A stretch of 34,423 nt of DNA, taken from Moraxella boevrei DSM 14165 (GTDB lineage: Bacteria > Pseudomonadota > Gammaproteobacteria > Pseudomonadales > Moraxellaceae). Numbering within the stretch: the first letter of the stretch is position 1; the number at the start of each line of letters is the position of its first letter. Made by a program: the position numbers and the translations under genes. The stretch covers positions 1 to 34,423 of the forward strand of contig NZ_KB903786.1 of assembly GCF_000379845.1 (NCBI RefSeq), written 5' to 3'. The notes beneath the pieces are model-generated. The model did not search any database. It was given only the letters and a program-made list of their open reading frames with translations, and was not told the origin of the DNA. Below are positions 12,027 through 17,123 of the stretch, piece by piece.

Positions 12027-13193
12027 TTAGGCTTGACAACCGACTAACCACAATGCAGAACGGCTATTTTTGGCAAGTTGGGGTGTGGTAAAGTTGAGCG
12101 TTTGCCCTTGCGGTAACTCGTTTAAGGTTAAGCCACCACTTGCGATAATTGCCGATAAAAGTTGATATTTGACCGCATAATTCATATTTTGGGCGTTGCT
12201 AATCGTATGGGTTACCATGCCCACCACCTCGCCTGTCGCTAACAGCAATGGGCTACCGCTAGAGCCTGCCTGAATAGGGGCGGTAAATTGAATAAAACGA
12301 ATATCACCGCCAATCCCACGCAACCCTGCAATGTTGCCTTGCGTAACTTGTAGCTGACTACTCAGCCCTGAGAGCGGAAATCCCAACGTGGTAATCTGCT
12401 CGCCAAGCAACTCAACGCCTGCCACCCGAATGGGCAAATAATGTGGTAACGGCTCTTTTACCTTTAATACCGCTGTATCACTGCCTTCATCGCTGATAAG
12501 CACTTGAGCTTCAATATCCGACAATCCTTCTTGGCGTAAGCCAATCAGATTTGCCCCATCAATCACATGATGACAGGTCAACAAATGATAAGGGTCAATG
12601 GCAAATGCCGTGCCTGTCCACGTTTCGCCTGATTGCGGACGGCGTTGGGCGGGCGATTGCTCGCTGTGTAAACCTTGATAGAAAGTTGGATGCCGTGCAT
12701 CTAAACTGATTTGCAGTTTTTGGGCAAAATTGCTCAAATGTTGTGTACTATTTTCTGCCAATGCACGTACTTTATATTGACCGTTACGCTCATAAATTTC
12801 TAGCAAAATGCTCGCCTTGACATGGCGTTCTTGGGCGTGGTATTGATAGCTAATCGTGTCATTAATTATCAGCTCAAAGGCGTTAATTTCCACCGCAGGC
12901 AAATTCATCTCAGCCGTGTCATAGGCATAGGCAATCAGTTGCACGGTTTTGGCGTGGTGCTTTTCAAACAGTTGATTAAGCTGTAATTGCCAAGTTTGTT
13001 TTTCAGCGTCAAAACTCGCCCAATCTTTATTTTCATGCAAATACGCAGGGCTAATTAACGCCTTTTTCTCGCTATCCATAACAAGCCACAACAAGCCAAT
13101 TTCTGTGCTAAGCCGTGCATTGGCAGATTTGATATGGATTTGACAAGTGGCATTGGCTAACACGGTATTTGCACCAAGGGGGAGATGTTGCAT
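12027..13193 (-). CDS. TerD-like domain fused to a trypsin-like serine protease
   Basis: This is a 388-residue protein with two parts. Residues about 1-165 resemble the TerD/TerA tellurium-resistance stress fold: the opening LPLGANT, VQLIAYAYD, and especially ASILLEIYERNGQYKVRAL (127-145) followed by an LSNFAQKL helix. Residues about 190-350 are a trypsin-like (S1/DegP-type) peptidase with a complete triad: His209 in LLTCHHVIDGA, Asp239 in EGSDTAVLKV and Ser312 in QAGSSGSPLL. No signal peptide is visible, so it is probably cytoplasmic, unlike DegP. There is no PDZ domain. The ATG follows AAGGAAAA. It lies 53 bases behind an ATP-grasp gene on the same strand. The substrate is unknown; the protease half is more certain than the TerD-like half. 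Confidence 0.82.
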   Translation of the reverse strand: MQHLPLGANTVLANATCQIHIKSANARLSTEIGLLWLVMDSEKKALISPAYLHENKDWASFDAEKQTWQLQLNQLFEKHHAKTVQLIAYAYDTAEMNLPAVEINAFELIINDTISYQYHAQERHVKASILLEIYERNGQYKVRALAENSTQHLSNFAQKLQISLDARHPTFYQGLHSEQSPAQRRPQSGETWTGTAFAIDPYHLLTCHHVIDGANLIGLRQEGLSDIEAQVLISDEGSDTAVLKVKEPLPHYLPIRVAGVELLGEQITTLGFPLSGLSSQLQVTQGNIAGLRGIGGDIRFIQFTAPIQAGSSGSPLLLATGEVVGMVTHTISNAQNMNYAVKYQLLSAIIASGGLTLNELPQGQTLNFTTPQLAKNSRSALWLVGCQA

Positions 13194-13246
13194 AGGTTTT
13201 TCCTTAAAATTTTCGCCCTATCTTAGCATATTTTTTATAAAAATAA

Positions 13247-14314
13247 TTAAATTCTCACACTCGTCATCAATGGTCTTACCGCACAAGGCTGGATTTTTTT
13301 GCGGATTTCTGTTAAGTTTGGCTTATCAATCAATCCTGAAAAATATAAAAACGCCAACTGGGTCAAATCCACCCCACTATGTACCGTATAACCAATGCCA
13401 CCAGACGGACGGCTATTGATTTCCAACACATGATGCTCGCCTGCTTCATCGGCTTTGGTCTGCACGCTCACAATCCCATCACAACCAAACGAGTGAATAA
13501 GCGGTAGCACCACTGCCATCACGTCGTTATCATAACCCAAATATTGGACACTGCCTTGTTTATAACGGGTAACCGCCCCCAGCACTTCGCCACGCTCACA
13601 CACCACATCAATCGAATACTCACGCCCTGACAAATAAGGCATTAGCAACATTGGAATGGGTTTTTCATGCACTTGCTGACTATGTTCATACGCATGGAGA
13701 AACTGGCTTATGCTGATATCTTTATTATCGGTCATGTACAAGTGCTCAAAACTATCCAAATTCTCATCATGATGTAATTTCCAAAAACCTTGGGCAAAAA
13801 TCCCCGAAACAGGTTTAACACATAACGGTATTTGCTGATATTGCTTTAATAAAATTTTTAATTCATCTACATTATTAAATTGCCAAGCGGTCGTCACTTT
13901 GATATTGTTTTGTTGGCAAAATTGGGTAAAATCAGATTTATTGTCAATTTTTGCTAACATATCGCTACTAGTCGCCCCTGTTAACAAGCGAATGCCTTGC
14001 TCGGCTAACATCGCTCGGTACGGTTCGTAATCTGCCGAGTTACGCCCTGTTAATAACACGTTGGCATGGTGTTGTTTGGCATGGTTAATAACAAATTCAC
14101 AACGTATTTTTGCCTGTTGGGATTTATTATGGCTTCCAAGCTCGGTATCGTAAGGTTCTTGATAAGCGATATCAGCACAGCTTAAAATTTCTGGACGCTC
14201 ATGGCGGTGTGATGCGATGATTTGTAACGGATATTGGGGTTTTAGGCGTTGCAAAGATTGGAGCATATCTCGTTGGCTAGATTGTCCTTCGGCGAGATAA
14301 ACGGCGATTGACAT
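13247..14314 (-). CDS. ATP-grasp domain enzyme
   Basis: This is a 355-residue soluble enzyme expected to use ATP to join a carboxylate to an amine or thiol through an acyl-phosphate. Residues 1-120 form a Rossmann-like pre-ATP-grasp domain. The ATP-grasp core shows Lys167 in LCVKPVSGIFAQGF, the YLSGREYSIDVV strand (228-239) and the metal-binding VLEINSRPSGGIG (296-308, with Glu298 and Asn300). It resembles the carbamoyl-phosphate-synthetase-like ATP-grasp proteins that accompany TerD genes in tellurium-resistance-type stress islands. The TerD-like protease gene directly follows. The substrate is unknown. The ATG at 14312-14314 follows AAAGGAAAA. A terminator-like hairpin lies just upstream. 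Confidence 0.85.
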   Translation of the reverse strand: MSIAVYLAEGQSSQRDMLQSLQRLKPQYPLQIIASHRHERPEILSCADIAYQEPYDTELGSHNKSQQAKIRCEFVINHAKQHHANVLLTGRNSADYEPYRAMLAEQGIRLLTGATSSDMLAKIDNKSDFTQFCQQNNIKVTTAWQFNNVDELKILLKQYQQIPLCVKPVSGIFAQGFWKLHHDENLDSFEHLYMTDNKDISISQFLHAYEHSQQVHEKPIPMLLMPYLSGREYSIDVVCERGEVLGAVTRYKQGSVQYLGYDNDVMAVVLPLIHSFGCDGIVSVQTKADEAGEHHVLEINSRPSGGIGYTVHSGVDLTQLAFLYFSGLIDKPNLTEIRKKIQPCAVRPLMTSVRI

Positions 14315-14393: not shown

Positions 14394-16409
14394 TTATGAC
14401 GGTTGATTTTCCGAGTTATTCTCGGTACTTAGTAAGTTGTTTTTGGCATCACCATTTACCATTTTCGCCATTTTATCGGCAATCACATGGTTAATTAAAC
14501 CATTTAAAGTGCCTGATTTTTCTGCCAAACCGTCAATCGCCTTGCCAATGGATAAGGATTTGGCAAAGTTGTTAAAGAAGTGATCTTCACCACCCACAAT
14601 GTCAATTTTGGCACGTTCCAGAGCGGTCGCCAATACCACGGCATTTTCTTTAGCAATGTCTTTACCTGCTTCAATAGAAACAAGGGCTTCTTTTAGGGCG
14701 GTTTCTAACGCCATACGGTATTCTTCGTGTTCACGAGCCGAGTCGCTCATGCTACCCATGGCATTGAATTTGTCCACCAAGCCGTCCGCTTCTGCTTTAA
14801 AGTGTTCACGCGTGACTTCGGCTTTGGCAAGTCCGACTTCACGTTCTGCTTTGGCGTTAGATTCAGCACGAGCCGAGATAACTTCGGCATCTGCCATACC
14901 AATCTCACGCTCAGCAATCGCTTGAGCTTGTCCTGCTTTGAGTTTGGCGTCAGCTTCGGCTTCACCTGTAGCCTTGATGACGTTGGCTTTGGCAAGTCCT
15001 TCTTTCTCTAGTGCCACCGCTTTGGCTTCTTGCACCACAGCCTCTGCCACGCCATGAGCGGACTCTTCGGCTTTAATGCCTTCAGCCAATTTGATTTTTG
15101 CATCGGCTTCTTTTTGGGCTGAGTCCAGTTTTGCCTGTGCCAATGTGATGATTTCTTGGGCTTTAAATTTCGCCGATTGTTCTTCAGCTTCGGCTTGTTT
15201 CACTTGACGAACTTTGATTTCTTCGGCTTCGGCTTCGGCTAACAGCACACGTGTTTGTTTGGCTCGGTCAGCTTCGGACACTTCACGCACTTCTTTAATA
15301 CGTTCTTCTTCCATTGCCACCGTTTTATCTACCGCAATGCGTTCACGGATAACGTTGGCAATTTCTTTTTTCTCAAGTTCAATCGCACGGTCGGCTTCAA
15401 TTTTTTGTAACTCAACTTCACGTTCTCGAGCGACCACTTCCAGTGCACGAGCTTTGGCAACTTTTTCTTCTTCAATAGCCACCGCACGTTTGCGATTTTG
15501 TTCGGCAACTTCAATTTCACGTTGTTGGTTTTCTCGTTGCACCGCCAAATCTTGCTCCACCAAAATCGTGGAACTTTCGTATTTTTTGCGTTCTTCTTCT
15601 TGCACTTTTTTGGTTTCGGCTTCTTCACGAGCAATCACGGACGCAATCTCACGCTGTTGGCGAGCGGTGGCATCGGCTTGTTGGCGTTCTAATTCCAACA
15701 TGGCTTCGGCAGTTTCTACATTTTTCTTCTTTATTGCCAACTCTTCATCACGTTCCAGTTCATTGGTACGAATATTTTGACTGGCGGTAATTTCGGTAAT
15801 TTTGCGAATACCTTCGGAATCCAGAATATTGTTGGGGTCAAGCGAAGATTTTGGCGTTTGTTCAAGGTAATCAATCGCCACATCTTCTAGCACATAGCCA
15901 TTTAAATCATTGCCAATTTCACGGATAATGCGTTCACGAAATTCACTGCGATTTTCAAACAGTTTCACAAAATCAATCTGTTTGCCAACCGTTTTTAACG
16001 CTTCTGAAAATTTGGCATTAAACAACTCATTTACCGCTGATTTATCAGACGCACGCTCCACGCCCACCGCTTTGGCGACTTTTAACACATCTTCTTCGGT
16101 TTCATTGACCCGCAAATAAAACGCCACCGTGATATCGGCACGCATATTATCACGGCAAATCAAACCTTCCTTACCACGTCTATCCACTTCTAGGGTAATG
16201 AGCGAAATCCGCATGAGTTCCTTTTTGTTAATCACAGGCCAGACCAAACCGCCGTCAAACCGCACGGAAATCTTGTGCATGCCGTTGATAATCAACGCCG
16301 TTCCCTGTTCAACTTTATTATAAAAGGCTTTAAATAACAACAAGATAGCCATTAAAAACACAAAAACCAATACCACTATTGTGCCTATCATGATTAAGGT
16401 ACTTGCCAT
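14394..16409 (-). CDS. yqiK: Flotillin-like SPFH-domain protein (YqiK type)
   Basis: This is a 671-residue membrane-anchored scaffold protein. A single N-terminal helix (about residues 4-27) is followed by the SPFH/band-7 domain (about 28-200, with VEQGTALIINGMHKISVRFDGG-type strands read in pieces and the NNIL-containing end). A very long Glu/Lys/Ala coiled coil covers roughly 205-560, with repeated A-E-A-x-A segments. The tail (about 600-671) is less charged. This is the bacterial flotillin layout, forming oligomers in membrane microdomains. A yqiJ-like gene lies 87 bases upstream, the same pair as E. coli yqiJ-yqiK. The ATG follows AAGGAG. A terminator-like hairpin follows, and then the ATP-grasp/TerD pair. 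Confidence 0.92.
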   Translation of the reverse strand: MASTLIMIGTIVVLVFVFLMAILLLFKAFYNKVEQGTALIINGMHKISVRFDGGLVWPVINKKELMRISLITLEVDRRGKEGLICRDNMRADITVAFYLRVNETEEDVLKVAKAVGVERASDKSAVNELFNAKFSEALKTVGKQIDFVKLFENRSEFRERIIREIGNDLNGYVLEDVAIDYLEQTPKSSLDPNNILDSEGIRKITEITASQNIRTNELERDEELAIKKKNVETAEAMLELERQQADATARQQREIASVIAREEAETKKVQEEERKKYESSTILVEQDLAVQRENQQREIEVAEQNRKRAVAIEEEKVAKARALEVVAREREVELQKIEADRAIELEKKEIANVIRERIAVDKTVAMEEERIKEVREVSEADRAKQTRVLLAEAEAEEIKVRQVKQAEAEEQSAKFKAQEIITLAQAKLDSAQKEADAKIKLAEGIKAEESAHGVAEAVVQEAKAVALEKEGLAKANVIKATGEAEADAKLKAGQAQAIAEREIGMADAEVISARAESNAKAEREVGLAKAEVTREHFKAEADGLVDKFNAMGSMSDSAREHEEYRMALETALKEALVSIEAGKDIAKENAVVLATALERAKIDIVGGEDHFFNNFAKSLSIGKAIDGLAEKSGTLNGLINHVIADKMAKMVNGDAKNNLLSTENNSENQPS

Positions 16410-16496: not shown

Positions 16497-17123
16497 TCAC
16501 ACCAAAACCACTCGGTAAGCATTTTGCTCACTTAAATACGCAGTTAACCGCACCTTGTCACCCAACGCAAAGGTGCTATCCACCGCTCGCACTTTTAAAA
16601 TCAAGCCAGCTCCACCATCTTCCAAAATCGCTTCGCCATAATTTGCATCTACCACTGACGTTCGCACGGTGGCGATTTTACCAACCAACGAACTTGCTGT
16701 CGTAGTCGGATTGCTCAAGGCAACCTTGCGTATCGGACGTACCAATACATTGGTAAGCCATAAGCTTATCGCAACCGTGACTAATAAAACCAAAATATTT
16801 GCTAGAACATTGAAAATACTGGGAAAGTTTAACAAAAAATTAGCAGAAACTCCCATAAATATAAAGCTAATTAACCAACCTGCCAAAGCAAAAATCGTCA
16901 AAATCACCAAAATCGGCACGCCATTTAGACCAAATTTCATTAATAAGCCTGACAACACATCGCCATCACCCACATCAGCTCCGTCCAATTCAAACACGCC
17001 TAACAACACACTCAACCAATATAACATGACAAACAGCACCAAGGCAGTAAAAATCACGGTCGGAAACTGGCTAACGCCTTGCAAAAAATCTTGAAAAGCG
17101 GGGCTAAAAAATAGGGCGAACAT
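16497..17123 (-). CDS. yqiJ: YqiJ-like OB-fold inner-membrane protein
   Basis: This 208-residue protein of the YqiJ/NfeD-like group typically partners flotillins. Hydrophobic helices lie at about residues 20-42, 68-92 and 108-130. A C-terminal OB-fold-like beta domain (about 145-208: SLVGKIATVRTSVV, then YGEAILEDGG and LGDKVRLTAY) would face the cytoplasm or periplasm. The ATG follows GGGAG. An imperfect intergenic hairpin (GGCTTTA/TAAAGCC, 16436-16462) lies between it and the flotillin gene without a T run, so the two are probably co-transcribed. NfeD/YqiJ proteins are thought to act in membrane quality control or membrane order; the exact role is open. Confidence 0.88.
   Translation of the reverse strand: MFALFFSPAFQDFLQGVSQFPTVIFTALVLFVMLYWLSVLLGVFELDGADVGDGDVLSGLLMKFGLNGVPILVILTIFALAGWLISFIFMGVSANFLLNFPSIFNVLANILVLLVTVAISLWLTNVLVRPIRKVALSNPTTTASSLVGKIATVRTSVVDANYGEAILEDGGAGLILKVRAVDSTFALGDKVRLTAYLSEQNAYRVVLV

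Follow-up and report, generated by a model that had tools for sequence, protein, structure and literature searches.

At positions 12027..13193 (minus strand) of the 34,423-nt stretch of Moraxella boevrei DSM 14165 DNA analysed here (the window), a single open reading frame with an ATG start encodes a 388-aa protein in which a TerD-like region seems to be joined to an S1 serine protease. This raises the questions of whether each half is what it resembles, whether the gene is a component of the Ter system, and what a protease might do there. The pairing as such is already published: a 2008 survey records a 'TerD-Tryp' architecture in one uncharacterised Pseudomonas syringae protein, YP_273108.1, with TerD N-terminal to the trypsin-like domain, as in the window fusion (PMC2605481). 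The accessible portion of that survey gives neither an operon, a residue analysis nor a function for this one protein, and the two are likened by architecture alone. Among the matches listed in our literature searches, the survey was the only source for a TerD-trypsin protein, and none of the matches listed, a set with few papers in full text and with Anantharaman et al. 2012 outside it, described the operon slot or the lost loop of the fusion reported below.

The TerD-like half and its acidic loop

As a single sequence, the window protein matches the Pfam TerD family (PF02342) over residues 83-159 at 18.1 bits (E 0.0019), below the 25.3-bit cut-off. This cut-off is exceeded in four of eight relatives scanned over the whole chain (L113 with 35.9, L012 with 34.7, L115 with 31.7 and L011 with 27.0 bits) and narrowly missed by L116 (24.8 bits) and, in a scan apart from these eight, by L042 (23.1 bits), with L010 at 15.8 bits; L006 and L073 gave no TerD match at E<=0.01 in the whole-chain scan of eight fusions. 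Taken as isolated N-domains, all 21 sequences gave a Pfam match to TerD at E<=1, the best being 2.2e-9. An hhalign query built as a profile of these 21 N-domains, 19 of them used, aligned with 15 canonical TerD rows with a probability of 96.2 (E 2.7e-9) and with seven closely alike TerA rows with a probability of 96.7 (E 4.3e-10), in the latter case from residue 2. In contrast, control alignments with AIM24 and ATP-grasp proteins from the same clusters yielded probabilities of 0.1 (E 0.61) and 0.3 (E 0.21), respectively. In a PDB search with a limit of E 10, the N-domain profile retrieved 2kxt/2kxv (E 6.6e-4) and 3ibz (E 4.9e-3), which are tellurite-resistance/TerD proteins, and nothing else.

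The core motif of the C-terminal part of TerD, E-x-Y-x-R/H...W/F/Y-K-x-RA, is present in the fusions, with E132, Y134, R136, K141, R143 and A144 invariant in 51/51 sequences. This core (E-x-Y-x-R...K-x-RA), the opening LxxGxN and the TerA-like start are shared with canonical TerD/TerA proteins (PF02342; 2kxt, 3ibz). The profiles give good support for reading residues 1-166 (12696..13193, minus strand) as a divergent TerD/TerA-like domain, a label chosen because the domain's C-terminal half gives the strongest match, the hhalign comparison with canonical TerD spans only profile columns 61-166, and the Pfam scores are mixed. The TerD/TerA-like N-terminal region proposed in the initial annotation is upheld by profile-profile comparison, the single window sequence itself falling short of the family cut-off.

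What sets the domain apart from canonical TerD, besides the attached peptidase and the sub-threshold Pfam score of the window protein, is the missing acidic loop. We aligned 51 fusion rows jointly with 15 canonical TerD rows (all Moraxellaceae loci), an alignment that is least certain in the half of the domain where this loop lies. The stretch HTGDNRTGxGDGDDE, which we take to be the Ca2+ site of TerD, is invariant or nearly so in all 15 canonical rows. Loop residues 75-81 (HTGDNRT) are gaps in every fusion row, and most fusions have other residues in the GDGDDE columns, D85 being kept in four and D87 in six. As for the two aspartates invariant in canonical TerD, Asp40 is replaced in the fusions (by Pro in 43), and position 42 carries D in 46 and N in five rows. 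The TerA rows are also devoid of most of the loop, which therefore marks canonical TerD and not the whole superfamily. The suggestion made earlier for this protein, that its TerD part senses calcium and switches the protease, draws on the TerD homology of the N-terminal half. However, because the canonical acidic loop is absent or replaced in 51/51 fusions, calcium sensing through the canonical site is unlikely, and a calcium switch as the working principle of the protein appears hardly credible to us. Loss of the loop would set an adaptor role of TerD apart from calcium binding.

The peptidase half and its likely activity

The S1 domain (residues ~190-350; 12144..12626, minus strand), delimited by Pfam and by alignment with HhoA, matches Trypsin_2 over residues 194-326 (E 1e-21) and also the Trypsin family (E 9.2e-7). 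In the alignment with PDB sequences, His209, Asp239 and Ser312 (codons at 12567..12569, 12477..12479 and 12258..12260, respectively, all on the minus strand) fall on the catalytic positions of HhoA. The intact triad noted in the initial annotation recurs, in order and with the GxSG-type motif GSSGS (within IQxGSSGSP), in each of the 51 distinct sequences of our protein alignment, which includes the window's own and many close kin; G310, S311, G313, S314, I307 and Q308 are likewise invariant. This alignment leaves out L075, whose frames are broken, and identical copies, and L117, which ends early (334 aa), is scored as a gap beyond residue ~323. Past the S1 domain, the C-terminal tail ALWLVGC (residues 380-386; 12036..12056, minus strand) is conserved among the same sequences, with Cys386 present in 47/51 (three Ala, one gap).

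Estimates of dN/dS from eight pairs, of which six were computable for each half, range from 0.018 to 0.058 in the S1 half and from 0.058 to 0.161 in the N-terminal half; since dS exceeds 1 in eight of the 12 computable values, they are rough, and it is in this rough sense that both halves appear to be under purifying selection. The fusion is likely an active protease, because it combines the Trypsin_2 match with an intact, conserved triad and low dN/dS. The residue ahead of the GSSGS loop presumably sets the P1 preference (an S1-pocket rule that we assume here), and because this residue is Ile307, a small aliphatic P1 as in DegP, not a basic one, would be expected.

Relatives of the peptidase half in the PDB are mostly HtrA-type, with HhoA the best (E 1.4e-14), and the NCBIfam model degP_htrA_DO is matched at E 1e-16. 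Such scores, obtained with HhoA/MucD/HtrA-type structures, would fit a cytoplasmic HtrA-like quality-control protease that is tethered through TerD and removes damaged proteins during metalloid or oxidative stress. Yet, the curated NCBIfam cut-offs of HtrA-type families are missed widely (best 60.9 vs 416 bits), and the PADLOC model RT-Protease_XI fits the S1 half about equally well (65.7 bits, E 9.6e-19). Moreover, while the fusion shares the S1 domain and triad with HtrA/Deg proteases, it differs from them in carrying a TerD domain and in showing neither a PDZ domain (none at E<=1 in Pfam for the window protein) nor a signal peptide (no hydrophobic N-terminus in the window protein by a Kyte-Doolittle scan, in which the best 19-residue mean, 1.09, lies at residue 339); both absences agree with what had been noted for this protein before. 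We regard a quality-control role as quite improbable. The fusion protein is probably cytoplasmic. In the relative L117, a Kyte-Doolittle value of 1.88 is found at residue 11, among additional residues that precede the conserved start.

The place of the fusion gene in Ter clusters

In the window, a ribosome-site-like AAGGA recognised by eye (13201..13205, minus strand) lies ahead of the fusion ATG, and 53 bases upstream, on the same strand, is the gene of ATPgrasp_Ter (13247..14314, minus strand; PF15632, E 6.1e-33), the ATP-grasp of the biosynthetic module of Ter, whose Pfam entry describes an ATP-grasp of a biosynthetic pathway associated with the Ter operon. Upstream of the ATP-grasp gene follow, by eye, a flotillin/YqiK-like gene (14394-16409, minus strand) and an NfeD-like gene (16497-17123, minus strand), the products of which have no Pfam match at E<=1. 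These two were considered as parts of the system and rejected as unsupported: the flotillin-like gene is present in one of the six genomes of the genus, and neither gene was matched at E<=1e-6 with more than 25% cover in the 50 other fusion loci searched, a set with many short loci that excludes L083-L085 and L113-L117. Promoter and terminator scans (17 hits vs 12.7 ± 3.6 in shuffles and 6 vs 7.2 ± 2.9, respectively) were not used as evidence. We also rejected an origin of the fusion by chance or artefact, because full-length homologues occur in seven of 57 other relative genomes, 43 fusion loci were matched in the genome contig database (L075, with broken frames, among them) and dN/dS is low, if rough.

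To describe the gene context we counted 53 distinct places, having dropped L006, L007 and L008 as the same places as L083, L035 and L045; the places are mostly from Psychrobacter and not independent, and several end at contig edges. PRTase_2 lies downstream of the fusion gene in 46/53, as the next recognised gene in 38 and after an NYN-TerD gene in eight. Upstream and on the same strand, the closest recognised gene is ATPgrasp_Ter in 39/53, with more than 500 bases of other sequence in between in 14. At least one Ter or module gene is found near the fusion in 52/53 places, which bears out the tie to the Ter system proposed earlier; at L010, there is no Ter gene within ~1.4 kb on either side. 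A full arrangement is seen in Psychrobacter (L042), where the order is TerD, AIM24, TerD, TerA (opposite strand), ATPgrasp_Ter, fusion, PRTase_2-TRSP, HAD, StiP-PELOTA and C-C bond lyase. The fusion thus has the same neighbours (ATPgrasp_Ter, PRTase_2, HAD, StiP-PELOTA, C-C bond lyase, TerD/A/B/C and AIM24) as the Ter operon with a biosynthetic module, a module reportedly defined by these genes by Anantharaman and colleagues in 2012; compared with that operon as citing papers present it, the fusion loci have a serine protease gene added. The genome of the window itself has the module dispersed among contigs with parts of it kept: ATP-grasp and fusion (C17), PRTase_2 (C7), StiP and lyase (C10), TerD/TerC (C8) and TerD/AIM24/TerD (C41).

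Distant genomes retain the association as well. Fusion-positive Pseudomonas megaplasmids account for eight of 72,556 plasmid records, and the two that were opened carry, on one strand, ATP-grasp, fusion, PRTase, HAD, StiP, lyase, HAD-IB, TerD, TerD, TerB, TerC and TerD; the N-domain of the megaplasmid fusion shows 29.6% identity. Further distant support comes from another family of the order (G228) and another family of the class (G489 and G718). In P. glacincola BNF20, the fusion gene, placed from our matches at LIQB01000002.1 189,803-191,047, forms, by coordinates, one edge of the ter cluster published for this strain (189,803-204,267; PMC5822837), and the accessible text of that paper does not name a protease product in the cluster. 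Judging by gene context, the fusion gene belongs with the Ter system, having a recurrent slot between the ATP-grasp and PRTase genes, and is accessory to the Ter module, because L122 holds a full Ter cluster and enzyme module without the fusion gene (L124 is alike, cut at its edge) and because the enzyme module of G003 and G028 (L127 and L128) is separate from the fusion.

Several other genes were noted at these loci. Some of the clusters encode a further fusion, which combines NYN, OST-HTH and TerD domains (L065:9288-10610); this nuclease-type protein resembles the protease fusion in joining TerD to an enzyme domain within a Ter cluster and differs in having TerD at the C-terminus instead of the N-terminus. 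NYN-TerD genes are the next recognised gene downstream of the protease fusion in 10/53 places, L065 by domain scan and L038, L052, L062, L067, L069, L076, L077, L009 and L068 by BLAST only. A predicted M48 metalloprotease gene lies directly upstream of the fusion at L068:5669-7957 (Peptidase_M48) and, by eye, at L009:2660-4108, and L068 also holds a LemA-like gene, again by eye. L082:6701-7657 (G000:C1) encodes 318 aa that end in a TerD domain (E 1e-12), while the N-terminal portion of this protein is unassigned.

The survey of homologues for the same fusion, which the initial annotation had called for, located full-length fusions in eight of 58 relative genomes, the window's included. TerD is present in all eight and in 11 of the 50 others (Fisher p 3.9e-5, kinship ignored; p 6e-4 within the family alone, kinship likewise ignored), and PRTase_2 is above cut-off in seven of the eight, the eighth, G020, being 68% complete. 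The window's genus has the fusion in three of six genomes. At the level of the order, eight of 390 genomes match the N-domain at E<=1e-6 with the whole domain covered and frames of at least 385 aa; G228 was opened (L115), and G266, G305, G339 and G407 are known from match and frame only. Five of 369 genomes match in the class, three with fusions (the window, G489 and G718) and two with TerA-like proteins (G428 and G609). Eleven of 398 match in the phylum, and the window's own is the only fusion among the eight opened, a set leaving out G813, G860, G930 and a second match in G1037. No fusion was found in the phage genome and viral contig collections.

Two side observations concern the genus. 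Among its six genomes, the fusion seems to exclude a long TerA-like protein and vice versa (G000, G003 and G004 vs G001 and G002), G005 having neither; both co-occur elsewhere in the family. In addition, the contig of L035 (BMPS01000063.1) bears the title Streptomyces cinereus JCM 3040, yet all 3547 bases compared agree with L007 of G003, a genome of the window's genus; the name of the record seems wrong or contaminated.

Possible roles of a Ter-associated protease

Published work raises the possibility that nucleotide-like signals are sensed or bound by TerD domains (PMC7824862, PMC7159879, accessible in part) and states that Ter proteins assemble into a complex at the inner membrane surface (accessible portion of PMC5822837). 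The reading that we consider most likely, and hold with about even confidence, is that of a probably cytoplasmic S1 protease of the Ter system in which the TerD half would dock or gate the enzyme and which would act as an accessory output or processing enzyme. The TerD half may anchor the protease at the TerD/TerA/TerC assembly beneath the membrane or, alternatively, may read a nucleoside-like product of the module; once the system is triggered, the protease would be brought or switched to a few protein targets.

The main rival places the protease inside the biosynthetic module, where it would trim a peptide or mature ATP-grasp, PRTase or StiP, the TerD half serving only to keep it in the complex. 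The usual gene slot within the enzyme block, between ATP-grasp and PRTase, points this way, as does StiP, a cysteine protease according to Pfam, which is usually the third module gene downstream. However, the fusions of L083 and L073 stand beside TerD genes without an enzyme block in the stretch examined, the same holds for L068, where 2.4 kb downstream was covered, and the L122 module looks complete without the fusion. We find such a role in the module rather unlikely.

Beyond the most likely reading, that of a Ter protease docked or gated by its TerD half, we can tentatively picture, as a possible if doubtful extension, TerD domains as adaptors of a plug-in kind, through which enzymes are brought to the Ter complex. 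A signal-gated protease arm, together with the TerD-tagged NYN nuclease of ten places, would then be the working output, switched by a nucleoside-like product and not by calcium.

Ter clusters turn up repeatedly among bacteria, and the way in which they confer protection is not yet established; the accessible part of one study likewise states that the mechanism remains to be elucidated (PMC5822837). Conserved, with its triad intact and in a slot that recurs among Ter clusters, the protease offers a concrete enzyme to assay, the substrate of which would reveal how the system acts.
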